From assembly GCF_023516575.1 (NCBI RefSeq), contig NZ_JAMGBE010000003.1, forward strand, positions 1 through 64,000: DNA of 64,000 bases. Reading direction: 5' to 3'. Origin of the DNA: Sphingomonas hankyongi (lineage in GTDB: Bacteria; Pseudomonadota; Alphaproteobacteria; Sphingomonadales; Sphingomonadaceae). Positions 29,307 through 47,675 of this stretch are shown one piece after another. The stretch's first letter is position 1. The number at the start of each line of letters is the position of its first letter. The notes below the pieces were generated by a model. The model was not told the origin of the DNA. It saw only the letters and a program-made list of their open reading frames with translations, and did no database searches. The translations under genes were made by a program, and so were the position numbers.

Positions 29307-30047
29307 TCAATCAATGAGATTTCGGCACCGGAGCAGAATAATGTGCCAAAGGAAAGTCAGGTTGCCGACGAGATATCGCCGCCATAGTCGGCGGGGCTCC
29401 AGCGCTAGGCGGAACAGCCATTCCAGCCGAAGTTTGCGCAGTATTGCTGGCGCGCGGGAGAAGCGGCCAGCGGCGAAATCGAGATACGCCCCGATGCACA
29501 GCAGCGTTGCGCCTGTGCTCACCCCGTGCCGAACTGCCCAAAGCTCCTGGCGTGGCTGACCCATGCCGACCAGAACGAGATCGGCCGCGGATTTGCGAAT
29601 CTGGTCGGCGATTGGTTGATTCTGATCTTCTTGAAAGAAGCCGTGCAGGGATCCGCACAAGTTTAGGTGTGGGAACAAGGCGGAAAGGGATCTCAGAGCA
29701 TCAGCCAAGACCTCGGCCGTGCTCCCCAATAGGAAAATGCGCGTCCCGGGCGCCAACTGAGACAGGATAGCAGGTGTAAGGTCCGTCCCGTTGAGGTTTT
29801 CTGGAAAACCTTGGGAGTACAGAAGCCGACCAGCAATATCGACACCCAAACCATCATTGAAAATGATCATTTGACCCAACGCTTCGGCAAACTGTGGGCA
29901 TGATAGAGCCAGGTTGACCGTGTGGGCGTTGCAAAAGCCAAAGACTTCAGCCGACCCCTCTTTTACCGAGTGCAAGACCTCCGCGATTGCTCCTTTGCAT
30001 GTTTGGACCCTGACTCTCACAGGACCGATCTGGCGGACAAGGCTCAC
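29307..30047 (-). CDS. WecG/TagA/CpsF-family glycosyltransferase
   Basis: The 246-residue protein shows the GT26 motifs: IFNDGLGVDIAGRLL, NLNGTDLTPAIL, LVLVGMGQPRQELWA, CIGAYLDFAAGRFSRAP and LEWLFRLALEPRRLWRRYLVGN. These enzymes transfer N-acetylmannosaminuronate, ManNAc, glucose or similar sugars to a lipid-linked acceptor, usually as the second sugar. The C-terminal basic and hydrophobic segment anchors it to the membrane. The start is a GTG with no strong ribosome site. It lies 15 bases after the glycosidase-like gene. Confidence 0.9.
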   Translation of the reverse strand: MSLVRQIGPVRVRVQTCKGAIAEVLHSVKEGSAEVFGFCNAHTVNLALSCPQFAEALGQMIIFNDGLGVDIAGRLLYSQGFPENLNGTDLTPAILSQLAPGTRIFLLGSTAEVLADALRSLSALFPHLNLCGSLHGFFQEDQNQPIADQIRKSAADLVLVGMGQPRQELWAVRHGVSTGATLLCIGAYLDFAAGRFSRAPAILRKLRLEWLFRLALEPRRLWRRYLVGNLTFLWHIILLRCRNLID

Positions 30048-32268: not shown

Positions 32269-33162
32269 ATGGAACAATGGACGAGTCCTTCACTCCTAGA
32301 GAAAAACTTAGAGTTCATCGCAGGTCTTGAAAGGCCAAAGCGAAGACATCATTGGCCCCACTTTAGAGAATTATCCCTCGATCAGGACGAAATGGGCGCT
32401 CGCTTACTCGGGGTTGGCGGCAGCGATGCGAACGTCATTCTTTCTGGAGATAGTAAGAAGCTGAGGTCGTTATGGGAGGAGAAGCGCTGCCTTCGGCCGA
32501 GCGAAGACCTTTCTGATGTCCTCGCGGTGAACCTCGGCAACTGGACAGAAGCCTTCAACCGCCAGTGGTACGAAAAGGTCTCAGGAAACGCGATCACGCG
32601 CATCCGAGAGTCCAGCGTGTGCTTCAATGACGCGTGGCGGCGCTGCACCATCGATGGCTTCGTTCATGAACTTGGAGCCGTCTGGGAGGCGAAACACACC
32701 AACGCTTTCTCCTCGCTGGATGACATCCTTGAACGATTCATGCCTCAGCTCCAGCACAATATGGCGGTTCTAAAAGCCGAACGTGCGGTGCTTTCAGTCA
32801 TCTTCGGCAACCACAAATACGAGATCATCGAGGTGGCTTCGGACTGGCTCTACCAGCAGGATCTCCTCACAGCGGAGCGGCAGTTCTGGGATTGCGTCAT
32901 ACGCGGCACCGAGCCCGTGCCGGTGGAACCTCCACCGACCCCGAGGCCGCTGGGGACTCGCGAAGTCTGCTTTGAAGGCAACAATGCGTGGGCGTCCGCA
33001 GCATTTGATTGGCTCGAAAATCGTTTGGCAGCGAAGACGCATGCGAATGCGTCCGCGCAAATCAAACAGCTAATCGACGAAGATGTTACGCGGGCTTTCG
33101 GCCACGGCATCGAGGCCAAGCGAAGCAGGGCAGGGGCAATCACCATTCGAGAGTTCGTCTGA
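32269..33162 (+). CDS. YqaJ-type viral recombinase (exonuclease)
   Basis: The 297-residue protein has a PD-(D/E)xK nuclease layout of the YqaJ family. It shows GVGGSDANVILSG, LAVNLGNWTEAFNRQWYE, the catalytic CTIDGFVHELGAVWEAKHT (D then E-x-K) and MPQLQHNMAVL. Such enzymes chew DNA ends for phage recombination and pair with an annealing protein, here the ERF protein encoded next (TGATG overlap). Its presence inside polysaccharide genes, without an integrase or structural genes, suggests a prophage remnant or a captured module. Confidence 0.85.
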   Translation: MEQWTSPSLLEKNLEFIAGLERPKRRHHWPHFRELSLDQDEMGARLLGVGGSDANVILSGDSKKLRSLWEEKRCLRPSEDLSDVLAVNLGNWTEAFNRQWYEKVSGNAITRIRESSVCFNDAWRRCTIDGFVHELGAVWEAKHTNAFSSLDDILERFMPQLQHNMAVLKAERAVLSVIFGNHKYEIIEVASDWLYQQDLLTAERQFWDCVIRGTEPVPVEPPPTPRPLGTREVCFEGNNAWASAAFDWLENRLAAKTHANASAQIKQLIDEDVTRAFGHGIEAKRSRAGAITIREFV

Positions 33163-33890
33163 TGCCTGCGCCGCTAATTTATTCGGCGATCCACGCAGTT
33201 GCCGCCGATCTCGCCGAAGCGGGCATCCCCAAAGCCCATTTTAGCCCTGAAGGAAAATACGAGTATCGCTCGATCGATGACGTTTTGGGAGGCTTGGCGC
33301 CACTGCTCGCTCAACACCGTGTGTGTTTGCTCGTTCACGCGCTGGAGCGGAGCTCTTCAGCCGTAAGTCCCAGTTCAACCTCGATGACCTCGGTGGCGGT
33401 CAAAGTCGCTTATACCTTCGTAAGCGTTGATGATGGTTCCTCACACGTCGTCGCAACCTACGGAGAAGCGTCCGACGAGACCGACAAGGCTACCGCCAAG
33501 GCAATGGCTTCAGCATTTAAGACCGCAATGGTGCAGACCTTTTGCATTCCTACCGGAGAAGCGGAAGCGGATAGTCGTGGAGCCCGTCGACCACGAGCCA
33601 AGCTTCACGGCCCTCAACCTGAGCAAGGCTGGCAGCAGTGGATTATCGACATCCGTGATCTCCTGGCTGGTTGCGAGTCCGAGGAGGCGGTCACGCTGGT
33701 ACAGGATCGTAACCGAAGCCTTCTCACTGCTCTCAGTCGGGAGCACGGAGATCTCTATTCTGAGATCGGCAGCGACTTCTCATCCCGGCGAGAATACTTG
33801 AGGTCGAAACCCGCGAAGCCGAAGGTTGCTCGGGCAAGATCGTCCAAGCGCCGCTCGACCCCAGCTCCCGAAGCGCTGCAGAATGCTTAA
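33162..33890 (+). CDS. ERF-family single-strand annealing protein
   Basis: ATG 33162 overlaps the upstream stop. The 242-residue product has the ERF core: IYSAIHAVAADLAEAGIPKA, FSPEGKYEYRSIDDVLGGLAPLLA, and TYGEASDETDKATAKAMASAFKTAM followed by FCIPTGE. A low-complexity basic C-terminus follows. ERF proteins anneal single strands exposed by the partner exonuclease, giving a Red-like recombination pair. The next gene overlaps by eight bases. Confidence 0.88.
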   Translation: MPAPLIYSAIHAVAADLAEAGIPKAHFSPEGKYEYRSIDDVLGGLAPLLAQHRVCLLVHALERSSSAVSPSSTSMTSVAVKVAYTFVSVDDGSSHVVATYGEASDETDKATAKAMASAFKTAMVQTFCIPTGEAEADSRGARRPRAKLHGPQPEQGWQQWIIDIRDLLAGCESEEAVTLVQDRNRSLLTALSREHGDLYSEIGSDFSSRREYLRSKPAKPKVARARSSKRRSTPAPEALQNA

Positions 33891-34218
33891 ATTCCCGAGG
33901 CGCCTTGTGCGGACCAAACCGGCGTCTCAATCGGGCCGGTGCCAAGGTCATCTGTCGTGGGTCCGCAAGCACTCGTGCTCAATTCCCGGCTGCGAACGGA
34001 TCCCGGTCGAATGCGCCCACGTTCGGCGAGGAACGGGAGGAGGGATCGGGCTCAAGCCTTCTGATCGTTGGGTGATCAGCCTCTGCGCATTGCATCATCG
34101 GGAGCAACACACGATCGGTGAGGCTCGTTTCGAGCTGAAACATTCGATTGATCTGCGAGAGCTCGCTTGTGAGTTCGCTCGCAGGTCTCCGCACTGGCGA
34201 AGGCTACGGGAACTCTAG
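33883..34218 (+). CDS. DUF968-like phage protein with HNH-like Cys/His cluster
   Basis: The 111-residue protein has a basic N-terminus and then a metal-binding pattern: CSIPGCERIPVECAHVRRG, SLCALHHREQHTIG. The spacing of C-x4-C, C-x-H, C-x2-HH and H resembles DUF968 and HNH-type nucleases found in phage recombination regions. It would act on branched or nicked DNA made by the two upstream proteins, although activity is not proven. It is the last gene of the module. The lasso operon begins about 60 bases downstream. Confidence 0.75.
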   Translation: MLKFPRRLVRTKPASQSGRCQGHLSWVRKHSCSIPGCERIPVECAHVRRGTGGGIGLKPSDRWVISLCALHHREQHTIGEARFELKHSIDLRELACEFARRSPHWRRLREL

Positions 34219-34276
34219 TTGATCGCTGAGATTCTAAGCATGGCCTTACACTTATGTGGTGGTTAGTGATTTGGCG

Positions 34277-35422
34277 ATGCTGCGGGAACTCACGGGAAAG
34301 GACCAGCTGCTGGCCGACCTGATCGCTGGGCGTGGCTATCCGTCTATTCAAGATGAGCCTTGCCCCACCGCTGATCTTGTAAAAGCGGTGCGGTATCACG
34401 GCATCGCTGGCTTGCTGCACGAGCGGAGTACTGGCTCCGAAGGGCCTTCGAGCTCGTTTGAAGAGGAGCTGCGCAACATCGCTCTTTCGCAGGCCATGTG
34501 GGAGCTACGACACCGAGCCGTTCTAGGTCGTATTCTGGAAGAGTTCGACGACCGAGGGATACGTTGCCTTCTGCTCAAGGGGACGGCTCTCGCATACGAT
34601 CTATATGACAACCCAGCTCAGCGAGCCCGAGGCGACACTGATCTTCTAGTCGAACAGTGCGCTCTCACCGAGGCGAGACGAGTTTTTCAAAGGCTAGGCT
34701 TTCAAGCTGAAAGCGAGGAGCCAGGCCTGCCGGAAGTCCTCCGGGGGCAGGAATCCTGGCTCTGTCGTGCGGACGACGGCTCGGTACATTCCATCGATCT
34801 ACACTGGAGAGTACTGAACGCCCCGGCGCTTCATGGAGCCTTCCCATTCGAGACGTTATGGTCGGGCCGTCGCGCACTGACGAAGCTCTCACGGGCTGCG
34901 TTCGCTCCTGCTCGTTCCATCCTGCTGGCTCATGCTTGCGTTCACCGCGCCCTGCACGATTGCTCGCCCTATTATGTCGGCGCCGACGTTTATTTTGGTG
35001 GCAATCGGCTGATCTGGCTGTGGGATCTTTTATTGCTGGGACGCTCTCTCACGCCACCGGAGTGGGAGGAGGTTGTCGAGCTGGCAAAGTCGGGGGCGCT
35101 CGGTGATGTGATCGTCGACGGATTGATGGCGGCGCAAGCGCGATTCGGCTCCTTCTGCCCAGCGCATGTTCAGGAGCGGCTGAGGCGCGCGGGACCCAAT
35201 CGTTACTTTCGCCGTGGCCAGCTCGGCCGGGCCGCGATGGACTGGTGGGCGGTCCGGGGTCCGCAGCGAAAGGCGCAATATGCGCTCGCGAAGCTGCTTC
35301 CCAGCCGGCAGTTCATGCAAGCCAAATATCCATCCGAGCGCGACAAGCCTCTCCCGCTGCTCTACCTTCGCCGGGTGCGGGAGCTGATCCGGCACCGTCC
35401 GACGGGAGCGAATGCCGGATGA
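34277..35422 (+). CDS. Nucleotidyltransferase-family protein of the lasso peptide cluster
   Basis: This 381-residue protein of the uncharacterised nucleotidyltransferase family (NTP_transf_5 type) shows LLLKGTALAYDLYDNPAQRARGDTDLLV, with the GDTD pair likely binding metal, and VHSIDLHWRVLN further on. Such proteins occur in kinase-containing lasso peptide clusters, where they may attach a nucleotide or act on a phosphorylated peptide. Their role is not settled. I prefer ATG 34277. A GTG at 34256 is possible. It overlaps the ABC transporter gene as ATGA and opens the cluster. Confidence 0.82.
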   Translation: MLRELTGKDQLLADLIAGRGYPSIQDEPCPTADLVKAVRYHGIAGLLHERSTGSEGPSSSFEEELRNIALSQAMWELRHRAVLGRILEEFDDRGIRCLLLKGTALAYDLYDNPAQRARGDTDLLVEQCALTEARRVFQRLGFQAESEEPGLPEVLRGQESWLCRADDGSVHSIDLHWRVLNAPALHGAFPFETLWSGRRALTKLSRAAFAPARSILLAHACVHRALHDCSPYYVGADVYFGGNRLIWLWDLLLLGRSLTPPEWEEVVELAKSGALGDVIVDGLMAAQARFGSFCPAHVQERLRRAGPNRYFRRGQLGRAAMDWWAVRGPQRKAQYALAKLLPSRQFMQAKYPSERDKPLPLLYLRRVRELIRHRPTGANAG

Positions 35423-37098
35423 AGGCTCGACAGCTCATCGCCTTCGCGAGGCCGTACAGCGGTCCCCTCAGCATCCTCGTTCTCCTGACTACGGCCAGTT
35501 CGATACTCATTCTGGCGGTGCCGTGGCTGGCCGGGCAGATGCTTGCCCGGATCGTTTCCGGCTCCGCTTCCGGCCAGGGACAGGTCATACCGCTGCTTCT
35601 GCTCTGCCTGGCCGGGGTTGCGCTGCTCAGCTTCGGGACTGCCTATCAGTCCGCGCGGACGACCGCGCACCTCCTGTCCGACCTCCGGCAGCGGGTATTC
35701 GACCACGTGCAGCGCCTCCCTCTCGGGTTCCACGACGGCCGCAGCAAAGGCGACACGCTCGCGCTGATGACCTTCGAGATCTCGCGCCTGAGCAATTTCC
35801 TGACGGCCACCCTGACGACCATCCCCTCGAGACTGCTCACGACTTTGGGAGCCATCGTCCTGATGTTCCGCATCGATGCCCGGCTCGCGCTGGTGGTACC
35901 GGTGCTGGTTCCGGCCTTTTACCTGATCCTGAAGATCGTCGGGCGGCGGCTCAGGGCTCTCGGCAGGGCCTGGCAGGAAGCAGAGGCGAAAGTTGTCGCG
36001 GTCGCGGAGGAAGCGCTCGAGATGCTTCCGGCGACGAAGGCGTTCACGCGCGAACGCGCCCAGAGCGAACGCTACCAGGCAGCACTCAGGCGGTCCGCCG
36101 GCCTGGCGGTGCGCGAAGGCACGATTTATGCCGCGCTCGAACCCCTCATTGGGCTTCTGGCCGCTTTCGCCGCGCTCGCGATTCTGTTGCTCGCCGGACA
36201 CAATGTTCGGACCGGTCAGATGAGCGCTGCAGAGCTGTTCAGCTTCCTTTTCTATGCGGCGCTACTCACACGGCCCGTGGGCGCGCTAGCCCACCTTTAC
36301 GGCCAGGTGCAGACCGCGCGCGGAACATTGACGCGGCTGCAGGGCGTCCTCGACATCGACGCCGAAAATCTGATCGATCGGCAATCGCCGGATTGGCGGG
36401 CGCGTGGAAACATCGTCTTTGAGGATGTGACGTTCGCATATCCGGGTCGCGAAACCGTGCTGCGAGGGGTCAATCTCGACATTGCCGCAGGCGAGACGGT
36501 CGCGCTGCTTGGCGCGAACGGCGCGGGCAAGACCGCCATGATCAACCTGCTCCTTCGTTATTACATGCCGCTATCTGGAAGGATTTTCATCGATGGACAG
36601 GACAGCGCAGGCCTTACCGTAGCCGACGTGCGCCGGCAGATAGGGCTCGTTCCGCAGAGCGCCTTCCTGTTCAACGGTACGATCCGCGACAACATTGCCT
36701 TTGGCGCGGAGACCCCGACCGAAGAGCGAGTCGATCGCGCGGCCCGCCTCGCTCAGGCCAGCAAGTTCATCGCTGGTCTCCCGGACGGAATGGATACTTT
36801 GATCGGCGACCGCGGTCTCCGTCTGTCGGGCGGGCAGCGGCAGCGAATCGCCCTTGCCCGCGCGCTGATCAACGACCCGCCGATCCTCCTTTTTGACGAG
36901 GCGACTTCGATGTTCGACGAGGAAGGGGAGTGTGCGTTCATCGCTGCCTGCCTTGACGCACTGAAGGGGCGCACCGTGCTCCTCGTGACTCACAGGCCGG
37001 CGACGCTCGCGCTTGCCGATCGCATCCTGACGCTGGACGATGGTCTGCTGCACGAGACGTCTCGCGGCCCCGCGAAACTGAACCAAGCTCTCGGATGA
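35419..37098 (+). CDS. Lasso peptide ABC exporter (fused membrane and ATPase domains)
   Basis: The 559-residue half-transporter has six membrane helices (about residues 15-290). The ATPase domain carries Walker A GANGAGKTA near residue 364, LSGGQRQR near residue 470 and Walker B ILLFDEATS. No N-terminal C39 peptidase is present, as expected when a separate B2 protease removes the leader. It should export the mature lasso peptide and give immunity to the producer. The start and stop overlap both neighbours as ATGA. Confidence 0.9.
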   Translation: MKARQLIAFARPYSGPLSILVLLTTASSILILAVPWLAGQMLARIVSGSASGQGQVIPLLLLCLAGVALLSFGTAYQSARTTAHLLSDLRQRVFDHVQRLPLGFHDGRSKGDTLALMTFEISRLSNFLTATLTTIPSRLLTTLGAIVLMFRIDARLALVVPVLVPAFYLILKIVGRRLRALGRAWQEAEAKVVAVAEEALEMLPATKAFTRERAQSERYQAALRRSAGLAVREGTIYAALEPLIGLLAAFAALAILLLAGHNVRTGQMSAAELFSFLFYAALLTRPVGALAHLYGQVQTARGTLTRLQGVLDIDAENLIDRQSPDWRARGNIVFEDVTFAYPGRETVLRGVNLDIAAGETVALLGANGAGKTAMINLLLRYYMPLSGRIFIDGQDSAGLTVADVRRQIGLVPQSAFLFNGTIRDNIAFGAETPTEERVDRAARLAQASKFIAGLPDGMDTLIGDRGLRLSGGQRQRIALARALINDPPILLFDEATSMFDEEGECAFIAACLDALKGRTVLLVTHRPATLALADRILTLDDGLLHETSRGPAKLNQALG

Positions 37099-38993
37099 GC
37101 GGGATTTGCGGGGTTGTCGGGCTCAATGGGAGAGCGCCCGCAGCCGATGAGTTGGACCCGACCCTCGAAGTCCTGAAGGCCCGGGGACCCGACGCCTTCC
37201 GTGTCTGGCACGACCAGAACATCATTCTCGGGCACACGTTGCTCACTACGACGCGCGAAGCTGCCGTCGAGCAGCTGCCCCTTCATCACCCCGAGAGCCG
37301 CTGCACGATCACCGCGGATGCGCGCCTGGACAATCGGGACGAGCTTTTCGCCGCGCTCGGCGTCCCGCCGGGCGGGCGGACGATCGGCGACGGTGAGCTG
37401 ATCCTGCGCGCCTATCTGCGATGGGGCGAAGACTGCCCGGGCCACCTGCTCGGTGATTTCGCCTTCGCCATCTGGGATGGTCGGCGCCGGCGGCTGTTCT
37501 GTGCGCGCGACCAGATGGGGATGCGGCAGCTAAGCTATGCATATTTGCCGGGCCGGGCGTTCGTGTTCGCGACCGAGCCGCGAGCGGTCGTGCATCACTC
37601 CCTCATTCCAAAGCAGCTAAATGAGGGCCGGGTCGCCGACTTCCTCGACAATCTTGAGCGCAGCACCCTGACGGAGACCTTTTACCGAGGGGTGCATCGG
37701 CTTCCGCCCGCGCACACCCTGGTTGCGGATGAATCGGGCCTTTCGGTCGAGCGCTACTGGCGGCTTTCCATGCCGGCACAGCTTCGGTTGAAGACGGACG
37801 AAGGCTATGTTGAGGCGTTTCTCGATACCTTTCGAGCGGCCGTAGGGTCCCGCCTTCGCAGCGCGAACGGCGTTGGCTCGATGTTATCCGGAGGCATGGA
37901 CTCGGGCTCGGTCAGCGCGATCGCGGCCGAGATCCTAAAATCCCAGGGGCGAGGGCCTCTCGCTACCTATTCAGTCGCACTCAGTGATCCGGCGACTTCC
38001 ATGGAAACGCTTGGAATCTACGAATCCTCTCAGATGCCTGGCCTCGATCCGCGGATTATCCGGGTGGAGGAAATGACGAGTTATCGCGACGAGATCATCG
38101 AGCTCACCAGGAACGAAGAGGAGCCCTTTGACTGTCACATGGGGCTGTTCCGCATGATTTACCGCGCTGCGAGCCGCGACGGAGTAAAAGTGGTCCTCGA
38201 CGGAGGCGCCGGAGACCTTCTCGTGTCTGGCGCGACCTACATGACCAAGCTGGCGCGGCGCGGTAATCTGCTCACGCTGTGGCGTGAGGCGCGCGCCACA
38301 GCCAACTTCTGGAACTTGCCTCCGCCTGCACTGAGTCTTTTTGGACGTAGCCTTTGGACTGCGTGGGCGCCTTCTCCGGCAGTGGCAGGACGACGGCGGC
38401 TTGCATGGTGGCTTAATGACCTCCGCAGCAGTCGATCGGGACGGATTTCGAAGCAGCTGATCGATCGGGCTAGGCTGAACGACAGGCGGCGAAAGACGAG
38501 GCTCGACGCGGAACGGATCGGTGCCCTGGATGACGATCAGCGGGCGCAATCCATTTCACAGGCCATACTGACGGTGGGCCGCGAGCGATATGACCGCGTC
38601 GCTGCTTCCTTCGGCGTGGAGCCGCGAGACCCCTTCATGGACCTGCGCCTCATTGATTTTTGTTTGTCGCTCCCGTGGAAACAGCTCCAGTCGGGAGGCT
38701 GGCCTAAGATCCTCCTGAGGCGCGCGATGGCCGGAAAGCTGCCGGACAGCGTACGGTGGCGCCGCGGGATGGATCACCTTGGCTTTCAGGTGATGAAGGA
38801 GATCTTCGGAAGCTTTAGTTCTGACGATCTCGATCGGGAGCAAATTCGCAATGTGCTGGCCCCGCATGTCACCGATGGTCATCTTCCCATCGTCCCGCCC
38901 GATTGGTCTGAACCGCGGCATTGTAAGGAGTGGGTTGACGCACTATGCCTCAACTGGTGGCTCCAAAAGGCCCGCCGCACGTTAGAACGCTAG
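37095..38993 (+). CDS. Lasso peptide macrolactam synthetase (protein C)
   Basis: The 632-residue protein is an asparagine-synthase homologue. Its N-terminus MSGICGVVGLNGRAP lacks the Cys2 nucleophile of glutamine-using enzymes, and its ATP-pyrophosphatase loop is MLSGGMDSGSVSAIA near residue 265. This combination marks the lasso cyclase, which adenylates the ring Glu or Asp side chain and closes it on the core N-terminus. It is followed 25 bases later by the precursor gene. The true glutamine-dependent homologue in this window, at 55835, differs by having MCGIAG. Confidence 0.9.
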   Translation: MSGICGVVGLNGRAPAADELDPTLEVLKARGPDAFRVWHDQNIILGHTLLTTTREAAVEQLPLHHPESRCTITADARLDNRDELFAALGVPPGGRTIGDGELILRAYLRWGEDCPGHLLGDFAFAIWDGRRRRLFCARDQMGMRQLSYAYLPGRAFVFATEPRAVVHHSLIPKQLNEGRVADFLDNLERSTLTETFYRGVHRLPPAHTLVADESGLSVERYWRLSMPAQLRLKTDEGYVEAFLDTFRAAVGSRLRSANGVGSMLSGGMDSGSVSAIAAEILKSQGRGPLATYSVALSDPATSMETLGIYESSQMPGLDPRIIRVEEMTSYRDEIIELTRNEEEPFDCHMGLFRMIYRAASRDGVKVVLDGGAGDLLVSGATYMTKLARRGNLLTLWREARATANFWNLPPPALSLFGRSLWTAWAPSPAVAGRRRLAWWLNDLRSSRSGRISKQLIDRARLNDRRRKTRLDAERIGALDDDQRAQSISQAILTVGRERYDRVAASFGVEPRDPFMDLRLIDFCLSLPWKQLQSGGWPKILLRRAMAGKLPDSVRWRRGMDHLGFQVMKEIFGSFSSDDLDREQIRNVLAPHVTDGHLPIVPPDWSEPRHCKEWVDALCLNWWLQKARRTLER

Positions 38994-39018
38994 TTTACGT
39001 ATCCAGAGGTAGTCGGTC

Positions 39019-39159
39019 ATGAAAACTGCACCCGTAAGCGAGACGAAATATTCTCCGCCAAAGCTCATCATCTACGGCGACATGGTGAAGAAGACCGCCT
39101 CAGGATCCGTCTCCAATCCCGAGACAGCCGGTAACCAGACCACGGCCAAGCATATTTAG
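39019..39159 (+). CDS. Lasso peptide precursor (protein A), 46 residues
   Basis: AGAGG about ten bases upstream supports ATG 39019. The leader carries YSPPKLIIYGDMVKKT, an exact match to the lasso leader pattern YxxPxLxxxGxxxxxT (Tyr11, Pro14, Leu16, Gly20, Thr26). With Thr26 at position -2, cleavage falls after Ala27. The core is SGSVSNPETAGNQTTAKHI (19 residues), whose Glu8 can close an eight-residue ring on Ser1. The C-terminal residue is Ile, not the Ser phosphorylated in paeninodin-type peptides. The stop is TAG, and the kinase frame continues in phase behind it. Confidence 0.85.
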   Translation: MKTAPVSETKYSPPKLIIYGDMVKKTASGSVSNPETAGNQTTAKHI

Positions 39160-39186
39160 TCTGGCGATTCGCTCGGAATTCCCGGG

Positions 39187-40080
39187 CTGAGCAAAGGCTC
39201 GACAATCAAGCTTACGTCGGATCTGGGCGCCGATGGCGAGTTCTGTCTGGATGACTGGAGCGTAGTTAACGCCTCAGGTGCCTTCGCTCTCCGTGGGGCC
39301 AGCAGGTGGCGGGACGGCGACCTCTCCATTGTAACGGACCCGTCCAGCCCAACCCTTTTTCAGATCAGCTTCGAAGGCGTTGGTAGTTTCGAAGTCGATT
39401 TCTCCAGCCGAGAAATTCGAGTTCGAAAGATCGGCCACCCATCGCCAGAAACAATTCGGCACCTGATTCTGGACCAAATCTACCCGCGAATTCTCGCAAA
39501 CGAAGGCCATCTCATCCTTCATGCAGCGGGAACGGCGATTGATGAGAAGGCTGTGCTCCTGGTGGGCGCCTCCGGATCCGGTAAGTCCACGCTTGCGGCC
39601 AGTATGCACAGCAATGGCTGGACCCTGCTTGGCGACGATGCCGTCCTTATCGGAACAGCAGACGGCCGCGTTACGGCGAAAGCGGTCTACCGGAGCCTTC
39701 GCTTGTTCCAGGATTCCGTCGACAAGTTGATCGCGGAGGGTTGCGAGCGGTCGCGAGTGGCCGACTATCTGGAGAAATGGAACGTCGGGGGAATGTCTGG
39801 GGACGAGCCTGCAGGGCCTTTGCCTGTCCGCGCAATCTTCTTGATTCAGTCCAGTCCGGAGGCGGACATTGCCGTTGAGCGGGCAGGTGGTTCCGCGGCT
39901 TCCATGTCATTGCTGGAGCAGACTTTCGCGCTCGATCCCACTAATCCCGACGATGCAAAACGAAGGCTTGGACAAGTGAGCATGCTCGGGGCGTCTGTGC
40001 CTTTATTCCAACTGACCTATCCCCGTGACTATTGGCGATTGGGAGAGGTTGAGGCGGCCATCAAGCAGGTAATCGGCTGA
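39187..40080 (+). CDS. HPr-kinase-like lasso peptide kinase with no canonical start codon
   Basis: From the precursor's TAG (39157) to TGA (40080) the same frame stays open. It encodes the kinase body: FEVDFSSREIRVR, LILHAAGTAI, the P-loop VGASGSGKSTLAASM, LLGDDAVLI and YRSLRLFQDSVDKL. The only ATG, GTG or TTG before the P-loop is a GTG at 39553 inside it, far too late. A CTG at 39187 (start of LSKGSTIKLTSDL) would give a normal length near 297 residues and is used here provisionally. Other options are amber readthrough from the precursor or loss of the original start. Homologues phosphorylate lasso precursors at the C-terminus. Confidence 0.7.
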   Translation: MSKGSTIKLTSDLGADGEFCLDDWSVVNASGAFALRGASRWRDGDLSIVTDPSSPTLFQISFEGVGSFEVDFSSREIRVRKIGHPSPETIRHLILDQIYPRILANEGHLILHAAGTAIDEKAVLLVGASGSGKSTLAASMHSNGWTLLGDDAVLIGTADGRVTAKAVYRSLRLFQDSVDKLIAEGCERSRVADYLEKWNVGGMSGDEPAGPLPVRAIFLIQSSPEADIAVERAGGSAASMSLLEQTFALDPTNPDDAKRRLGQVSMLGASVPLFQLTYPRDYWRLGEVEAAIKQVIG

Positions 40081-40126
40081 CTGCTTTTGCTTGTCTTTAA
40101 TTGGGAGAGCCGTAGCAAGCCGCCCC

Positions 40127-40405
40127 ATGATGGATATCCTGTCGCAGCGTTTGACGCCGTCCCCCGATGCCTTCGCGACCGCCATGGGGAGCGAAACGGT
40201 CCTGCTGCAAGTTAAGAGTGGGATCTATTACGGCCTCGACGAGGTTGGGACGCGGATTTGGACAGGGTTGCAGGCTGGACTGAAGCCAAGCGAGATCTGC
40301 GAGAAGATTGCTGGCGAGTTCGATATACCTGTCGCGACCATCGAGGCCGATGCAAGGGCGTTTCTGGAAGAGCTGAAGGCCCATGAGATCATCATCGCGG
40401 AATAA
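40127..40405 (+). CDS. PqqD-like lasso leader-binding protein (B1, RRE)
   Basis: The 92-residue protein has the PqqD/RRE pattern: SQRLTPSPDAFATAM, a beta hairpin LLQVKSGIYYGLDEVGTRIWTGL, then helices ending in LEELKAHEIIIAE. B1 binds the precursor leader and hands it to the B2 protease and cyclase. Two adjacent ATG codons (40127, 40130) are possible starts, with a GGGAG site rather far upstream. It overlaps the B2 gene by 23 bases. Confidence 0.88.
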   Translation: MMDILSQRLTPSPDAFATAMGSETVLLQVKSGIYYGLDEVGTRIWTGLQAGLKPSEICEKIAGEFDIPVATIEADARAFLEELKAHEIIIAE

Positions 40406-40838
40406 ACAGGGCAAGCTCACCCGAGCATCTAGGCTCAACGTCCGGGATTGGATCGACGTGGCGATTGCCGTGAAGGAACTGGCGATCGCCCGGGCAACGC
40501 TATCTCTAATCGATGTCGAGGAGTTGCTGACTGAGACCCACAGCAACGCCTCTCCAGCCCGCAGTCGAAGGCTAATCAAGAGAGTGGGCATGGCAATCGG
40601 GCGCGCACATCACAGGGTCCCTTGGCGCGCAGATTGCCTTGTGCAGGCCCTCGCCGCTCAGCGCTGGCTCGCTCGACACAATCTCCCGACTTCCATCTCT
40701 CTTGGTGTGAAGCGTGCCGGCGAAGGATCAATTGACGCTCATGCCTGGCTTACGTGCGGTGAACTGGTCGTAACTGGCGGCGACGTTGCGCCGTATCGCA
40801 GGTTGGAACCGGCATCACCGCCCGGTCCCCAAGACTGA
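40383..40838 (+). CDS. Lasso peptide leader protease (B2, transglutaminase-like)
   Basis: The 151-residue protein matches the lasso B2 family. It has VPWRADCLVQALAAQRWL with the catalytic Cys85, LGVKRAGEGSIDAHAWL with His120, and a C-terminal VVTGG followed by YRRL. It cuts the leader after Ala27 of the precursor using the B1-bound substrate. The split B1/B2 form is normal for clusters that also carry a kinase and an exporter. It is the last clear lasso gene, and no isopeptidase or TonB receptor follows. Confidence 0.9.
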   Translation: MRSSSRNKQGKLTRASRLNVRDWIDVAIAVKELAIARATLSLIDVEELLTETHSNASPARSRRLIKRVGMAIGRAHHRVPWRADCLVQALAAQRWLARHNLPTSISLGVKRAGEGSIDAHAWLTCGELVVTGGDVAPYRRLEPASPPGPQD

Positions 40839-40850
40839 GCCACAATCCCG

Positions 40851-41981
40851 TTGACTGCTTGCCTGGTCACCGCTGCGAATACGGCGTGGAATATCGTCAA
40901 CTTTCGTGCGGGCTTGATCAGCCAGCTCAAGCATGCGGGCTTCGATGTAGTCGTAGCGGTGCCGCCTGATTCATCATACAGCGAACGAATGGCGGCGCTG
41001 GGCGTCGAGCAAATCGATGTCGAACTCGATCGCTCTGGCTTGAACCCGTTCGCGGACGTCAGCTTATTCTTCAAATATTGGAAGGTGCTGCGTCGCCTGC
41101 GGCCTGCCGCGTTCCTCAGCTTCACAATCAAGCCCAATATCTACGGTTGCCTGGCCGCGCGAATCCTCGGTATTCCGGCGATCGCTAATGTCAGCGGCCT
41201 CGGTACGGCATTCTCCGAGCGCTCCTGGCTTCGGCGTCTCGCGACGAACCTTTACCGCGTAGCTCTGAAGCGCGCCCACGTCTTCTTCCAGAACGCAGAC
41301 GACATGCGTGAGTTCGTCGAAGATCGCATCGTGCTTCGCCAAAACGCGCAGGTGCTCCCTGGTTCGGGGATAGACCTGAAGGAGTTTGTCCCGGAGCCGC
41401 TGCCGGACGGCGGCCCGATATTCCTGCTCGTCGCCCGCCTTCTAGTGGGCAAGGGGGTTCGCGAATTCGTGGCAGCTGCCCAAGAGGTCAGGCGCGAATT
41501 CCCCGATGCGCGCTTCCGCCTGCTCGGGCCGGTGGACGAGGGCAATCCCACCGCGATCAAGCGTGATGAGCTCGATTCCTGGATCGCCGAAGGCGTGATC
41601 GAATATCTTGGGGTCAGGGAAGACGTCCGTGGCGAGATCGCCAAGGCTAGCGTGATGGTTCTGCCTTCCTTCTATCGTGAAGGGGTTCCGCGATCGCTGC
41701 TGGAGGGTGCAGCCATGGCTCGCCCGCTCATTTCCACTGACACGCCAGGCTGTCGCGAGCTCGTCGTCGAAACCGCCGGTGGGCTGGCCTGCGCGCCCCG
41801 CGATGTCAGCTCCCTGGTCGATGCGATGCGAAAAATCGCGCGGATGAGTGCCACTGAACGAACTCGCATGGGCTTGGCCGCCCGGAGCTTGGTGGAGGAG
41901 CGCTTTTCGGAAGAACGCGTGGTTCACGCATATCTTGCAGCCTTGGCTTCCGCAGGCGTTCGGCGACGGTCCCTTGTCTAG
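40851..41981 (+). CDS. GT4-family glycosyltransferase
   Basis: The 376-residue GT-B protein opens CLVTAANTAWNIVNFRAGLI and has AFLSFTIKPNIYGCLAARILG and NVSGLGTAFS in its N-terminal half. LLVARLLVGKGVREFVAAA and VLPSFYREGVPRSLLEGAAMARPLI follow in the donor half. The pattern is close to PglA/CapM-like enzymes that use UDP-N-acetylhexosamines, but this is not certain. The start is a TTG 12 bases after the lasso B2 stop. Despite that closeness it probably belongs to the glycan genes downstream. Confidence 0.85.
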   Translation: MTACLVTAANTAWNIVNFRAGLISQLKHAGFDVVVAVPPDSSYSERMAALGVEQIDVELDRSGLNPFADVSLFFKYWKVLRRLRPAAFLSFTIKPNIYGCLAARILGIPAIANVSGLGTAFSERSWLRRLATNLYRVALKRAHVFFQNADDMREFVEDRIVLRQNAQVLPGSGIDLKEFVPEPLPDGGPIFLLVARLLVGKGVREFVAAAQEVRREFPDARFRLLGPVDEGNPTAIKRDELDSWIAEGVIEYLGVREDVRGEIAKASVMVLPSFYREGVPRSLLEGAAMARPLISTDTPGCRELVVETAGGLACAPRDVSSLVDAMRKIARMSATERTRMGLAARSLVEERFSEERVVHAYLAALASAGVRRRSLV

Positions 41982-42037
41982 ACTGACGGGCCACTACCGC
42001 ATACGACCCGCACGCCTCTAAGCGCGAGGGTCCCGGC

Positions 42038-43081
42038 TTGCTCGTCTACTGGTTGCTGTTCGCGTATTTCGCCGCCGGCGCGTTGTTCGCACAAATTAGC
42101 CGCGGTCCTGAGACGGCCCCGCGGCCCATGCTCGCCATCGGCGCCATGATCGTCGCAGTGCTGATCGGCTTTCGGTACCAGGTCGGCGCCGACTGGCTCA
42201 CCTACAAATTCATCTTTCAGCGGGCTGCAAGATCGGACTTGCTTGAGGTGATGAGGCTGGGTGATCCAGCGTACCAGGCTCTGAATTGGCTGGTCCAGCA
42301 ATCGGGCACCGAAATCTGGCTGGTGAACGCGGTTTGCGCGGTGATTTTCGTGTGGGGGCTGTTCCGGTTCTGCATGGTTCAGCCGGTGCCCTGGGCAGCC
42401 GTCCTGCTTGCGGTCCCTTATTCGGTCATCGTGCTCGCCATGGGATACACACGGCAAGGCGTGGCAGTGGGCATCCTGATGGCTGGACTCGCTTCCTTCG
42501 TAAGGAGCGGGTCGCCGATGCGCTTTGCGGCTTATGTATTCGCCGCGGCGCTCTTCCATCGCAGCGCAGTCGTTGCCTTTCCGCTCGTTGCGTTGGCGAC
42601 CAACCGGAATCGCGCGATAAATCTACTGTTGGCCATCGCGGTCAGCATCATGCTCTACGACTTCTTTCTCGGCGACGCGCTCGACGATTACATCCAGGAT
42701 TACATCCGCACCCGTTACTCGTCGCAGGGCGCCGTTATTCGGCTGGCCATGAATATGGTCGCGGTTGCGGTGTTCTGGCTGCTCGGCAGGAGGCTTCGTT
42801 TCGGCGAGGTCGAGTATAGACTTTGGCGGAACTTCTGCGTCGGTTCGATCCTGCTTGTCGGCCTTTTGGTCGTTCTCCCATCGTCCACCGCCGTCGACCG
42901 GATGTCGCTCTACGTCATTCCGTTGCAGATCGCGGTGCTCGGGCGCTTGCCAATAGCCTTTCCCTCTCGGCTACCGGCGACTACTGCGATTGTCGTCTAT
43001 TGCTTCGCTGTCCAATTCGTTTGGCTGAACTTTGCCCAGCACTCGAAATATTGGGTGCCGTACCAGCTGTTTCCCCTCTAA
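42038..43081 (+). CDS. EpsG-family polysaccharide polymerase-like membrane protein
   Basis: The 347-residue protein has about ten helices and the EpsG pattern: VLIGFRYQVGADWLTYKFIF near the N-terminus, MGYTRQGVAVGILM in the middle and a short FHRSAVVAFPLV segment. EpsG proteins polymerise exopolysaccharide repeat units. It belongs to a different family from the ligase-like protein at 19672-21180. The start is a TTG with GAGGG upstream. It precedes the rhamnose genes by 24 bases. Confidence 0.85.
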   Translation: MLVYWLLFAYFAAGALFAQISRGPETAPRPMLAIGAMIVAVLIGFRYQVGADWLTYKFIFQRAARSDLLEVMRLGDPAYQALNWLVQQSGTEIWLVNAVCAVIFVWGLFRFCMVQPVPWAAVLLAVPYSVIVLAMGYTRQGVAVGILMAGLASFVRSGSPMRFAAYVFAAALFHRSAVVAFPLVALATNRNRAINLLLAIAVSIMLYDFFLGDALDDYIQDYIRTRYSSQGAVIRLAMNMVAVAVFWLLGRRLRFGEVEYRLWRNFCVGSILLVGLLVVLPSSTAVDRMSLYVIPLQIAVLGRLPIAFPSRLPATTAIVVYCFAVQFVWLNFAQHSKYWVPYQLFPL

Positions 43082-43105
43082 CAGGTCATGGTGGCAGGAG
43101 AGCGC

Positions 43106-43987
43106 GTGAAAGGTATTATTCTCGCCGGCGGCAGCGGCAGCCGGTTGCTCCCGGCAACCCTTGCTGTGTCCAAGCAGCTGCTTCCTGTCTTCGACAAGCC
43201 TATGATTTACTATCCCCTCGGCGTGCTGATGCTCGCCGGCATTCGCGACATTCTGATTATCTCAACCCCGACGGATTTGCCCCGCTTCGAGGCGCTGCTG
43301 GGAGATGGCAGCAGCTACGGCCTCCGTTTCTCTTATGCGGAGCAGCAAGAGCCGCGCGGGCTCGCAGACGCTTTCATCGTCGGCCGCGATTTCGTGGGCG
43401 ACAGTCCCGTGGCGCTCATTCTCGGCGACAACATCTTTTACGGCGCCGGGCTGATCGACCTTGTTCGAACGGCTGCCGAGCCCAAGGCGGGGGCCACGGT
43501 CTTCGCTTATCCCGTCGACGACCCCGAACGCTATGGCGTGATCGAATTCGATGCCGCAAACGGGCGCGGAATCTCGATTGAGGAGAAGCCTGAGTACCCC
43601 AAATCGAGCTGGGCGGTGACCGGGCTTTACTTCTACGACAACGATGTCCTGGACATCGCGGCGGGTCTGGCGCCTTCTGCGCGCGGCGAGCTCGAAATCA
43701 CGGATGTGAACCGTGCCTACCTCGTGCGGGGCGATCTTCACGTCGCCCGGCTCGGTCGCGGGTTCGCCTGGCTCGACACGGGCACGCATGACAGCCTTCA
43801 CGACGCCGCCTCGTTCGTCCGAACGATCGAGAAGCGCCAGGGACTGAAGGTCATGTGCCTCGAAGAGATCGCGCTCGAGCTCGGATATCTGACCGCGGCG
43901 GACCTCCGCGAGCGGGCCGATAAGCTCGGGCGCACCGACTATGCCGATTATCTCCGCCGCCGCGCAAACGAGCATGAGCGTGCTTGA
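43106..43987 (+). CDS. rmlA: Glucose-1-phosphate thymidylyltransferase
   Basis: The 293-residue protein has [56 protein letters not shown]-type elements ([15 protein letters not shown]) and [22 protein letters not shown]. It makes dTDP-glucose from dTTP and glucose-1-phosphate, the first step of dTDP-L-rhamnose synthesis. AGGAG seven bases before GTG 43106, and the standard MKGIILAGG start, favour this codon over ATG 43088. It overlaps rmlC by 14 bases. Confidence 0.95.
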
Positions 43988-44531
43988 TAGCCGGCCGCTC
44001 GAGCTCGACGGCCTCGTCGAGCTTACGCCCCATCGCTTCGCCGACGAGCGCGGCTTCTTCTCGGAGGTGTGGAGGGAAGATGCGTTCGCCGCGGCTGGCG
44101 TTCACGCGCACTTCGTTCAGGACAACCTGTCGCTCTCGAAGCGCAAAGGGGTGATCCGCGGGCTGCACTACCAGAGCCCGCCGGCGGCTCAGGCCAAGCT
44201 GGTGCGTGTCTCGCGCGGCGCCATATTCGATGTAGCGGTCGACATCAGGCCAGGCTCGGCAACTTACGGCCGCTGGGCCGGGGTCATTCTTTCGGCGGAG
44301 AAATGGAACCAATTGTTCATCCCAGAGGGGTTCGCCCACGGCTTCGCGACGCTCGAGGACGATACCGAGGTCAGCTACAAGGTTACGGCGCCCTACAGCC
44401 CAGATCACGACCGCGCGATCCGCTTCGACGATCCCGACATCGGCATCGACTGGCCGCTGGACGCTGAGCCTCTGCTGTCCCCCAAGGACGCCGCAGCGCC
44501 CCTGCTTCGTGACTCGAATACTGGCTTCTGA
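43974..44531 (+). CDS. rmlC: dTDP-4-dehydrorhamnose 3,5-epimerase
   Basis: The 185-residue cupin has [37 protein letters not shown] with the catalytic His, [20 protein letters not shown] and [27 protein letters not shown]. It epimerises the 4-keto sugar at C3 and C5. ATG 43974 lies inside the end of rmlA, so the two are translationally linked. Confidence 0.95.
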
Positions 44532-44533
44532 GC

Positions 44534-45601
44534 ATGAGCGACATCGCTTCGGTTCTTGTCACTGGGGGAGCTGGGTTCATCGGCGGCGCCGTTTGCCGAC
44601 GGCTCGTCCGCCGCGGCTATCGCGTGGTCAACCTCGACAAGCTCACCTACGCCGCGGACTTGAATGCTCTTCGCGGACTCGATGGCGAGGCCAATTACCG
44701 CTTCCATCAGGCGGACATTTGTGACGGCCCAAAGGTCGCGTCGATACTCGCGGACGAGCAGGTGCACGCGATCATGCATCTCGCGGCCGAGACGCACGTC
44801 GACCGGTCGATCGACGGCCCGGACGTCTTCGTGCAGACGAATGTCGTCGGAACGGTTGCGCTACTCAATGCGGCGCTGGATTATTGGCGAACCCTTGATG
44901 GCCGTCGCCGGGATGCTTTCCGTTTCCATCACGTGTCGACGGACGAGGTTTTCGGGGACCTGGACCTGGACGAAGGCGTCTTCACCGAGGAAACGCCTTA
45001 TGCGCCTTCCTCTCCTTACTCGGCCTCCAAGGCCGCCTCGGATCATTTCGTGCGCGCCTGGCACGAGACCTACGGACTGCCGGTCGTGCTATCCAATTGC
45101 TCGAACAATTATGGGCCGTTCCACTTTCCCGAAAAGCTGATCCCGTTGATCATCCTCAACGCATTGGAGGGCAAGGAGCTGCCGGTCTACGGCGACGGCC
45201 GTAACGTCCGCGACTGGCTCTATGTCGACGATCACGCCGCCGCGCTGGAGCTTGTGCTGACGAAGGGCGAGCTTGGCCAAAACTACAACATCGGAGGGCG
45301 GGCGGAGCGTTCCAACATCGGGGTCGTCGAGACGATTTGCGACCTTCTCGATGCGAAGGTGCCGCTTGCGAGCGGAGAGGCACGCCGGTCGCTCATACGC
45401 TTCGTTACTGATCGGCCAGGCCATGATCGGCGCTATGCCATCGACCCGACCAAGGCGGAGCAGGACCTGGGCTGGCACGCGGAAGAAAGCTTCGAGACGG
45501 GTCTCGAGAAGACCGTCGACTGGTTCCTGCAAAACGACTGGTGGTGGCGCCCCATCCGGGAGCAACGATATTCGGGGGCGCGCCTGGGCACCGGCGCATG
45601 A
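44534..45601 (+). CDS. rmlB: dTDP-glucose 4,6-dehydratase
   Basis: The 355-residue short-chain-type enzyme has the NAD loop VTGGAGFIGGAVCRRLV, HLAAETHVDRSID, the catalytic STDEVFGDL with the D-E pair, and the YSASKAASD triad residues Tyr and Lys. It converts dTDP-glucose to the 4-keto-6-deoxy sugar. It starts two bases after rmlC and overlaps rmlD as ATGA. Confidence 0.96.
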   Translation: MSDIASVLVTGGAGFIGGAVCRRLVRRGYRVVNLDKLTYAADLNALRGLDGEANYRFHQADICDGPKVASILADEQVHAIMHLAAETHVDRSIDGPDVFVQTNVVGTVALLNAALDYWRTLDGRRRDAFRFHHVSTDEVFGDLDLDEGVFTEETPYAPSSPYSASKAASDHFVRAWHETYGLPVVLSNCSNNYGPFHFPEKLIPLIILNALEGKELPVYGDGRNVRDWLYVDDHAAALELVLTKGELGQNYNIGGRAERSNIGVVETICDLLDAKVPLASGEARRSLIRFVTDRPGHDRRYAIDPTKAEQDLGWHAEESFETGLEKTVDWFLQNDWWWRPIREQRYSGARLGTGA

Positions 45602-46467
45602 AGATCCTGGTGACAGGGACGGACGGACAGGTTGCGCGTTCGCTGCGGGAACGTGGAGCCCAGTTTCCCGATTGCGAGATCAACTTCGTTGGACGCCCGG
45701 AGCTCGACCTCGCCCGGCCGGGAAGCGCTGCGGCTGCTATCGAAAGGTTGCGACCGGATCTTGTCGTCAACGCGGCGGCCTACACGGCGGTCGATCTTGC
45801 GGAGACCGAGCCTGAGGCGGCTTTCCGCATAAATGGCGATGCGGCCGGCGAAGTAGCTCGCGCCGCGCATGAGGTGGGCGCCGCAATTATCCAGCTATCG
45901 ACCGATTACGTCTTCGACGGGACCGCAACGGCTCCCTATCGCGAGGACGATAAGACTGCGCCAATCAATGTCTACGGCCGCTCGAAGGTCGCGGGCGAAG
46001 AACAGGTGCGGTCCGCCAATCCCGAGCATCTCATAATCCGTACTTCCTGGGTCCATAGTCCCTTTGGCCGCAACTTCGTGAAGACGATGCTGCGGCTTGC
46101 GGAGGATCGTGACGAGGTCCGCATTGTCGCTGACCAGGTCGGCTGTCCGACGAATGCCCTGGACATCGCAGAAGGCATCCTGACCGCCGCGACAAGCGGA
46201 AAGGGAAGCGGAGGCACCTATCACTTCGCAGCGGGCGGACAGTGCAGCTGGGCCGAATTCGCAGCGGAGATATTCGCGGTGAGCTCGGGTCTCGGCGGGC
46301 CGACAGCGGATGTTACCCCCATCTCGACGGCTGGTTTCCCGACAGCCGCCCCCCGGCCGCGTTACAGCGTTCTGGACTCGAGCCGTTTCCAGCAGGAATT
46401 CGGCTTCGTTATTCCTCGCTGGCAGGAGAGCGTGGCAGAGGTCGTTCGACGTCTCGTTTCCGAATGA
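45598..46467 (+). CDS. rmlD: dTDP-4-dehydrorhamnose reductase
   Basis: The 289-residue protein has the NAD(P) loop ILVTGTDGQVARSL, NAAAYTAVDLAETEP, STDYVFDGT, YGRSKVAGE with the Tyr-x3-Lys pair, and TSWVHSPFGRNFVKTM. It makes dTDP-L-rhamnose, the last step of the rml pathway. Start and stop overlap both neighbours by four bases. The order here is rmlA-C-B-D. The product would supply the rhamnosyltransferase-like enzymes in the window. Confidence 0.95.
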   Translation: MKILVTGTDGQVARSLRERGAQFPDCEINFVGRPELDLARPGSAAAAIERLRPDLVVNAAAYTAVDLAETEPEAAFRINGDAAGEVARAAHEVGAAIIQLSTDYVFDGTATAPYREDDKTAPINVYGRSKVAGEEQVRSANPEHLIIRTSWVHSPFGRNFVKTMLRLAEDRDEVRIVADQVGCPTNALDIAEGILTAATSGKGSGGTYHFAAGGQCSWAEFAAEIFAVSSGLGGPTADVTPISTAGFPTAAPRPRYSVLDSSRFQQEFGFVIPRWQESVAEVVRRLVSE

Positions 46468-47675
46468 GCGCGTCCCTTCTCTACATAAGCTATGACGGCA
46501 TGCTCGAGCCCCTCGGGCAAAGTCAGGTGCTGGCCTACCTGGAGCGCCTGGCTCCCGGCCGCGACATTCACCTGATCAGCTTCGAGAAACCGCAGGACTG
46601 GGCCGACACGGTGCGGCGGGAGAGGATCTCGCGGCGTATCGGCCAGGCTGCCATCCACTGGCATCCGTTGCGCTATCACAAGAAACCGTCAGCTCTTGCA
46701 ACGGCTTATGACATTGCCCTGGGTTCGGCGCGCGCGATCGCCATTGCGCGGCGTCATAAGGTCGGCGTCGTTCACTGCCGGAGCTACGTGGCGGGTTTGA
46801 TGGGCCTCGCAGTGAAACGGGCAACAAAAGCGCGATTCCTGTTCGATATGCGTGGGTTCTGGGCAGACGAGCGCGTGGAAGGCCGCCTATGGCCGGCCGG
46901 AGGAAGGCTGTTCCAGGCGGCGAAGCGCGCCGAGCGATCCCTGCTCCTGGCGAGCGATCATATCGTGACCCTGACGCGTGCTTCGGAGCGCGAATTGCAG
47001 ACCTGGCCGTTTCTGCAAGGACGTATGCCGCCCATCAGCGTCATTCCGACTTGCGCCGATCTCGACCGCTTCACGATCCAGGGCCCGCCGCAGCGCAAAC
47101 CGTTCGTCCTCGGTTACGTTGGATCGGTCGGTACCTGGTATTTGTTGGACGAGATGCTTCGCTGCTTCAAGCTGCTGCAGCAGATAGAAGCAGATGCTCG
47201 CTTTCTTATAATCAATCGCGGCGAGCATAAGCTGATTCAGGAGCGTGCCGCGGCGCACTCCATACCCACCGGGAATATTGAGCTGATCGGTGCCGACCAC
47301 CACGCCGTTCCTTCGTATATTCCGCGAATGTCGGCAGGCCTGGCTCTCTATCGGCCTTCCAGCTCGCGCGTGGCATGTGCGCCCACCAAGCTGGCGGAGT
47401 ATCTGGCCTGTGGAGTGCCCTGTTTGGGGAGCTCGGGCGTTGGAGACATGTCTGAGATCCTCGACGAGGAACAGGTCGGCGTTGTGCTTGACGATCTCGA
47501 TGACGATAGCCTGCGCAAGACGTTGTTGCGCCTCATCGAACTCAGTCGGAGCGCAAACATTCAGGATCGCTGCCGGAGCGTCGCTATGAAGTTGTTCTCG
47601 CTCGATGTGGGTGTTGCGGCTTACGCCGACATATACGAGCAGCTAGACGATCGGCATTCGAAAGTTCAACGGTGA
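46464..47675 (+). CDS. GT4-family glycosyltransferase
   Basis: The 403-residue protein starts at an ATG overlapping the rmlD stop. Its N-terminal half shows LLYISYDGMLEPLGQSQVLAYLERLA and FDMRGFWADERVEG, both typical of one branch of GT4 exopolysaccharide enzymes. Its donor half shows LGYVGSVGTWYLLDEMLRCF and KLAEYLACGVPCLGSSGVGD. It ends in a GTGA overlap with the methyltransferase gene, so it is part of one long coupled operon from 43106 to about 51689. Confidence 0.85.
   Translation: MSASLLYISYDGMLEPLGQSQVLAYLERLAPGRDIHLISFEKPQDWADTVRRERISRRIGQAAIHWHPLRYHKKPSALATAYDIALGSARAIAIARRHKVGVVHCRSYVAGLMGLAVKRATKARFLFDMRGFWADERVEGRLWPAGGRLFQAAKRAERSLLLASDHIVTLTRASERELQTWPFLQGRMPPISVIPTCADLDRFTIQGPPQRKPFVLGYVGSVGTWYLLDEMLRCFKLLQQIEADARFLIINRGEHKLIQERAAAHSIPTGNIELIGADHHAVPSYIPRMSAGLALYRPSSSRVACAPTKLAEYLACGVPCLGSSGVGDMSEILDEEQVGVVLDDLDDDSLRKTLLRLIELSRSANIQDRCRSVAMKLFSLDVGVAAYADIYEQLDDRHSKVQR

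Follow-up and report, generated by a model that had tools for sequence, protein, structure and literature searches.

In the lasso peptide system BsfA/BsfK of Bradymonas sediminis (Duan et al. 2023, PMC10368454), the kinase BsfK phosphorylates Ser3 of the core, accepts an S3T substitution and acts on the linear precursor, helped by the B1 protein. This system has the same set of genes as the locus analysed here, namely N (nucleotidyltransferase-like), D (exporter), C (cyclase), A (precursor), K (kinase), B1 (leader recognition) and B2 (leader peptidase). The two cores are alike in a predicted eight-residue ring, a Ser or Thr at core position 3 and the lack of a C-terminal Ser, whereas BsfA has Ile(-2), Gly1, Asp8 and an Asp end and our precursor has Thr(-2), Ser1, Glu8 and an Ile end. 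The conserved motif of BsfK, H148-G163-G166-G168-K169-S170-D186-D187, is equally spaced in K by the published positions (PMC10368454).

Other described systems share fewer features. Paeninodin (PadeA/PadeK; PMC9266682, PMC8498205, PMC5067487) has the same C-A-K-B1-B2 order and an HPr-kinase-like K that acts on the linear precursor; however, its C-terminal Ser is phosphorylated and its cluster ends in D, whereas in our locus the core ends in Ile and both N and D lie upstream. A different order, A-B1-B2-C-K-D, is given for a proteobacterial kinase cluster (PMC5067487), unlike ours. SyanA/SyanK of Sphingobium yanoikuyae is likewise a sphingomonad cluster with a kinase and a split B, but the substrate of SyanK carries a C-terminal Ser (PMC9266682, PMC8498205). 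Pseudomycoidin (PsmK/PsmN) combines a kinase with a gene annotated as a nucleotidyltransferase, and it is by this annotation that PsmN is likened to N; its core, unlike ours, has a C-terminal Ser, on which PsmN installs hexoses (PMC9266682, PMC8498205). Finally, metanodin (Negri et al. 2025, PMC12670498) also has a first ring residue other than Gly, and its precursor was labelled 'other gene' by the tool used, which we count as a further likeness; it differs in Asn1 and an Asp ring acid, and the text of that report mentions no kinase.

The stretch of DNA analysed (the window, 64 kb) carries a compact cluster in the order N-D-C-A-K-B1-B2, with the following features.

34256..35422, plus strand: N, nucleotidyltransferase-like protein (PF14907, NTP_transf_5), GTG start; Pfam E 6.2e-36, 124.7 bits against a cut-off of 31.2
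35419..37098, plus strand: D, ABC exporter; PF00664 and PF00005 above cut-off; ATG overlaps the N stop (ATGA)
37095..38993, plus strand: C, lasso cyclase, asparagine-synthase-like; PF00733 and PF13537 above cut-off; ATG overlaps the D stop (ATGA)
39005..39009, plus strand: AGAGG, probable ribosome-binding site of A, read from the sequence
39019..39159, plus strand: A, predicted lasso precursor of 46 aa, stop TAG; from sequence, translation and motif scan
39019..39099, plus strand: predicted leader of A, 27 residues, with YxxPxLxxxGxxxxxT at -17 to -2
39100..39156, plus strand: predicted core of A, SGSVSNPETAGNQTTAKHI; codons of Ser1 at 39100-39102, Ser3 at 39106-39108 and Glu8 at 39121-39123
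39160..40080, plus strand: K, HprK/PEPCK-fold peptide kinase frame, in frame with A
40127..40405, plus strand: B1, PqqD-type leader recognition protein; PF05402 64.2 bits against a cut-off of 23.4
40383..40838, plus strand: B2, transglutaminase-like leader peptidase, overlapping B1; NF033537 67.2 bits against a cut-off of 33, and PF13471

The lasso components C, B1 and B2 are thus all present, B2 above a curated NCBIfam cut-off and C and B1 above Pfam cut-offs. Against the curated models for their own families, C (487 bits for NF033535, cut-off 525) and B1 (56.2 bits for NF033536, cut-off 80) score below threshold. A promoter scan gave no sigma-70-like site (1.5 in shuffles) and a terminator scan three terminator-like sites (5.9 in shuffles); both were uninformative. 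Directly upstream of the cluster lie phage-type recombination genes (32269-34218), encoding a YqaJ-type exonuclease, an ERF recombinase and a DUF968/HNH-like product. Exopolysaccharide-type genes flank the cluster at 29307-30047 and 40851-47675, among them WecG-type and other glycosyltransferases, EpsG and a sugar nucleotidyltransferase.

An earlier note on this DNA had proposed a 46-codon lasso precursor gene in a kinase-containing cluster, fitting YxxPxLxxxGxxxxxT at all fixed positions and lying between cyclase and kinase genes. The motif scan and the gene set bear this out. A starts 25 nt past the cyclase stop, 9 nt 3' of AGAGG, with the kinase frame directly following, and reads MKTAPVSETKYSPPKLIIYGDMVKKTASGSVSNPETAGNQTTAKHI before its TAG; the predicted cleavage site divides this translation into the leader MKTAPVSETKYSPPKLIIYGDMVKKTA and the core SGSVSNPETAGNQTTAKHI. 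All fixed positions of the lasso leader motif are filled (Y-17, P-14, L-12, G-8 and T-2). A holds the single exact match to the motif that a six-frame search of the window gave, against a mean of 0.02 open matches per sequence in 200 Markov-1 random sequences of window length, and a relaxed scan of 33800-41500 on both strands returned no other ORF; A therefore stands well above chance. No better precursor, a prospect raised in the earlier note, was found in that interval. Two NCBIfam lasso precursor models match A, each with a score short of its cut-off. We are confident that A encodes a lasso peptide precursor. Cleavage one residue past T-2 would release, as the note had it, a 19-residue core with Ser1, Glu8 and a C-terminal Ile.

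We searched related genomes for the same kinase. At E < 1e-40, one other besides the window was found in 71 genomes of the genus, that of Sphingomonas alba SE158 (G197, locus L066), and two others in 397 sampled genomes of the family, the S. alba genome again and that of Porphyrobacter sp. AAP82 (G383, locus L079). These two clusters are the closest relatives of the window cluster: both contain homologues of N, C, K, B1 and B2 as well as a precursor between C and K, and C is 48% identical to the S. alba cyclase. The S. alba core, SGTQPPTENGGQPQKHP, has Ser1/Glu8, which answers the note's suggestion to look for homologous cores in sphingomonads; the AAP82 core, AGSQGGQENATMTGPSFMA, has Ala1/Glu8. 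With a limit of E 0.01, a profile of 19 precursors, the window's included, matched 21 of the 397 family genomes, and only the window, S. alba and AAP82 below 1e-14.

Thirteen of the weaker profile matches (L148-L160) have a different leader type, ending [FY]G[ST]VR[NE]LTG, with Asp rings. This second sphingomonad precursor type has, by the Thr(-2) rule, cores that open with Gly1-Ser2 in 12 of 13 cases (that of L151 opens with GMS) and carry Asp at 8 or 9, and its recurring hydroxyl is Ser2, not Ser3.

A GTDB genome scan with a cyclase alignment yielded at least 79 loci. From the matches listed we defined a core family of the window plus 15 loci (L066-L075, L077-L080 and L107), giving 16 loci and 22 precursors; loci were chosen by core pattern and cluster, and L076 ends inside the cyclase. 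Among these 22 listed precursors position 1 is Ser in 11, Ala in six, Gly in four and Asn in one; position 2 is always Gly; position 3 is Ser in 13, Thr in eight and Val in one; and position 8 is Glu in 20, the window included, although such constancy is partly due to selection since the core itself was used to choose the 15 loci. Position 8 differs in L072, with Glu 7 and 9, and in one L077 precursor, with Glu 7. Ser/Thr occupies positions 4-7 and 9-14 in 14-23% of these listed precursors, and a C-terminal Ser occurs in two of the 22, both from L070, which could be of the C-terminal-Ser type. In contrast, among the other 71 listed precursors (52 loci) Ser/Thr3 is found in 4, a C-terminal Ser in 29 (14 of which are near-identical Mesorhizobium rows) and Asp9 in 55. 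Family counts are not independent, because the loci were picked partly by core and the rows are related.

Among the matches listed, the group is found in Alpha- and Gammaproteobacteria and on one acidobacterial contig without a kinase match. Gene order varies within it: the L071 precursor and a second L067 precursor lie past the kinase, and L080 and L107 have their kinase upstream of the cyclase. L068 has Val3 and still has a kinase, and L075 has Thr3 with no kinase match on its 7.9-kb contig. L080 and L107, both from gammaproteobacterial MAGs, carry consecutive precursors, three in L080 and two in L107, of the pattern S/A-G-S/T-x4-E, with Met-rich tails and, in L080, Cys as well.

In related genomes, lasso precursors were seen fused past the core to a Peptidase_S74 domain (PF13884, chaperone of endosialidase): L167 (G103), L168 (G378), L169 (G251), L058 (G412) and L170/L166 (G041). 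The domain begins SDxRxKxN (SDPAAKEN in L058), and a Pfam scan of L150, L153, L158 and L166 placed all four above the S74 cut-off. The fused ORF adjoins the cyclase gene in L058, L167, L168 and L169; beside that of L170 no cyclase match was found. We know of no self-cleaving or chaperoning follower in a lasso precursor, and 'lasso peptide' together with 'Peptidase S74' was not found in the open-licence literature searched. A PRMT/PrmA-like methyltransferase gene lies between kinase and B1 in two clusters (L054:6744-7916; L055:2746-3900, minus) and just 3' of the precursor in three (L058:4500-5567, minus; L167:5885-6916; L168:5263-6330, minus); the window has no space for one between A, K and B1.

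The earlier note had predicted a ring between Ser1 and Glu8, and the family backs it: the frequency of Glu8 (20/22) and of Ser1 (11/22) in the related precursors among the matches listed supports this ring well, and Glu8 is the sole acid in the core of A. On sequence grounds we regard a Ser1-Glu8 ring in the product of A as highly probable. The note's impression that a Ser-first core is strange did not hold, as Ser1 recurs in the family and serine is among the experimentally observed first residues of lasso peptides (Negri et al. 2025, PMC12670498). A Ser-first core is accordingly not unique and Ser as first lasso residue not new. Among the open-licence papers listed, none was found to use the phrase 'serine at position 1'. 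The computed monoisotopic mass of the predicted lasso is 1879.9024 Da, or 1959.8687 Da when monophosphorylated.

K is open for 306 codons. It matches Pfam Hpr_kinase_C at 24.3 bits, under the cut-off of 33.3, and comparison of its sequence with those of solved structures yielded no significant match (best E 0.15). We modelled its structure from 14 kinases (mean pLDDT 86.2) and searched with the model, which returned PEP carboxykinases, the best of them at E 4.6e-7, and at E 2.4e-5 the HPr kinase/phosphatase 3tqf, the expected fold for HPr-kinase relatives. The 14-row kinase alignment shows no variation at His121, Gly139, Gly141, Lys142, Ser143, Asp159 and Asp160, and against the published BsfK positions K has the whole motif at a constant offset of 27 (H121, G136, G139, G141, K142, S143, D159, D160). 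In a kinase tree of 77 rows, from which L070, L072 and L073 were left out, ten window-family loci (12 rows, with duplicates for S. alba and AAP82) and two long-branch sphingomonad rows split off with 100/95 support from the remaining 63 rows, among which are all those labelled C-terminal Ser. L080 and L107 share the core pattern, yet their kinases are on the far side of this split.

Phosphorylation of a C-terminal Ser, the site of PadeK and SyanK, was rejected for A, whose core ends in Ile. Position 3 is Ser, matching the BsfK site. The BsfK-type motif spacing of K, together with the split from C-terminal-Ser kinases in the tree, points to Ser3, inside the predicted ring, and given a working kinase we somewhat favour this residue as the phosphosite. 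K may instead act on another core hydroxyl, or on several, which we consider possible though rather unlikely. The core offers six Ser/Thr (Ser1, Ser3, Ser5, Thr9, Thr14 and Thr15), and SyanK and ThcoK are described as adding several phosphates, albeit on one residue (review PMC9266682). Against this, position 3 alone is Ser/Thr in nearly all related precursors (21/22), while position 5 is so in 5/22 and position 1 is Ser in 11/22, all among the matches listed. Ser1 stays a candidate since ring closure would take up its amino group and leave its hydroxyl free. The conserved Ser/Thr3 could alternatively serve ring shape, and the kinase beside Val3 in L068, the Thr3 core without a kinase match in L075 and the tree positions of L080 and L107 also speak against the Ser3 reading.

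From 39160 to 39552 the frame of K has no ATG, GTG or TTG, and the first canonical start, GTG 39553, lies past the catalytic His, whereas 14/14 relatives' kinases have one or more of these codons ahead of the His. K may therefore be poorly made or inactive. The earlier note had pointed out neither this nor the lack of a C-terminal Ser in the core. Near-cognate codons in the frame include ATT 39178, CTG 39187, CTG 39223 and CTG 39247. Placing the start by alignment failed, because alignments conflict as to the motif, within the first 45 codons, that corresponds to the relatives. A frameshift joining ATG 39233 or 39251, in another frame, to K is less likely, as codon scores favour the K frame already from about 39160-39190; the frame is the best of three in most windows from about 39160, with an exception at 39400-39460. 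The most likely reading is that K starts at a near-cognate codon, with coupling to the end of A, ahead of loss of function or an assembly error and then of read-through.

Loss of the start by mutation, or its concealment by an assembly error, would leave no working kinase and an unmodified Ser1-Glu8 lasso as the product. We judge this unlikely, though it would account for the missing start, present in all 14 relatives examined, and would agree with the long end branch of K in the kinase tree (1.32 against a median of 0.43). However, the long frame has stayed open with its catalytic residues kept, its codon scores are those of the top frame in most windows, and it models well from residue 28 on. 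CTG 39223, furthermore, opens a 12-residue stretch to Trp-Ser, the same distance as from the GTG of the S. alba kinase, though alignments disagree there.

It is very improbable that K is made solely by read-through of the A TAG, as a precursor-kinase fusion. A and K form one frame parted by that single stop, the codons past the TAG score as coding, and residues 1-27 of K, with pLDDT below 50, are predicted to be disordered and would be linker-like; yet none of the 14 relatives needs read-through. Were it to occur, each kinase molecule would bear its own leader and core ahead of the catalytic domain and the stop codon would set the ratio of substrate to enzyme. The idea that A is a chance open frame and that another gene encodes the precursor can be dismissed, for although A is short and its codon score near neutral (0.05 per codon), the leader motif is rare by chance, A has its position and homologues in relatives, and 33800-41500 holds no second candidate.

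We consider it probable that A gives rise to a class II lasso peptide belonging to the phosphorylated, kinase-containing group, made as follows. B1 would bind the leader via its YxxPxL region, and K would phosphorylate the linear precursor, most likely at the hydroxyl of the conserved core residue 3. B2 would then cleave one residue past T-2, C would join Ser1, through its amino group, to the Glu8 side chain, forming an eight-residue ring around an 11-residue tail, and D would export the product. N, which has homologues in both the S. alba and the AAP82 cluster, may modify the phosphate, a role that has been proposed for PsmN in pseudomycoidin.

By predicted gene functions and core, the cluster is of the phosphorylated lasso peptide type. 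Its core, ending in Ile, sets it apart from the C-terminal-Ser type (PadeK, SyanK, PsmK), and Ser3, with His, P-loop and Asp-Asp at BsfK spacing, places it with the residue-3 type; we infer by analogy that the system works like BsfK, with residue-3 phosphorylation predicted. A Ser/Ala1-Gly2-Ser/Thr3-Glu8 group was not found described among the open-licence papers listed, which is weak evidence that it is new. The core of A adds a testable member to a kinase-containing lasso group whose products may be phosphorylated in the ring rather than the tail. From the division between Ser/Thr3-Glu8 and C-terminal-Ser cores we predict kinases of two specificities, which direct assays could tell apart, and the missing start of K would mean either that a natural product operon uses a rare non-ATG start or that the gene is decaying.
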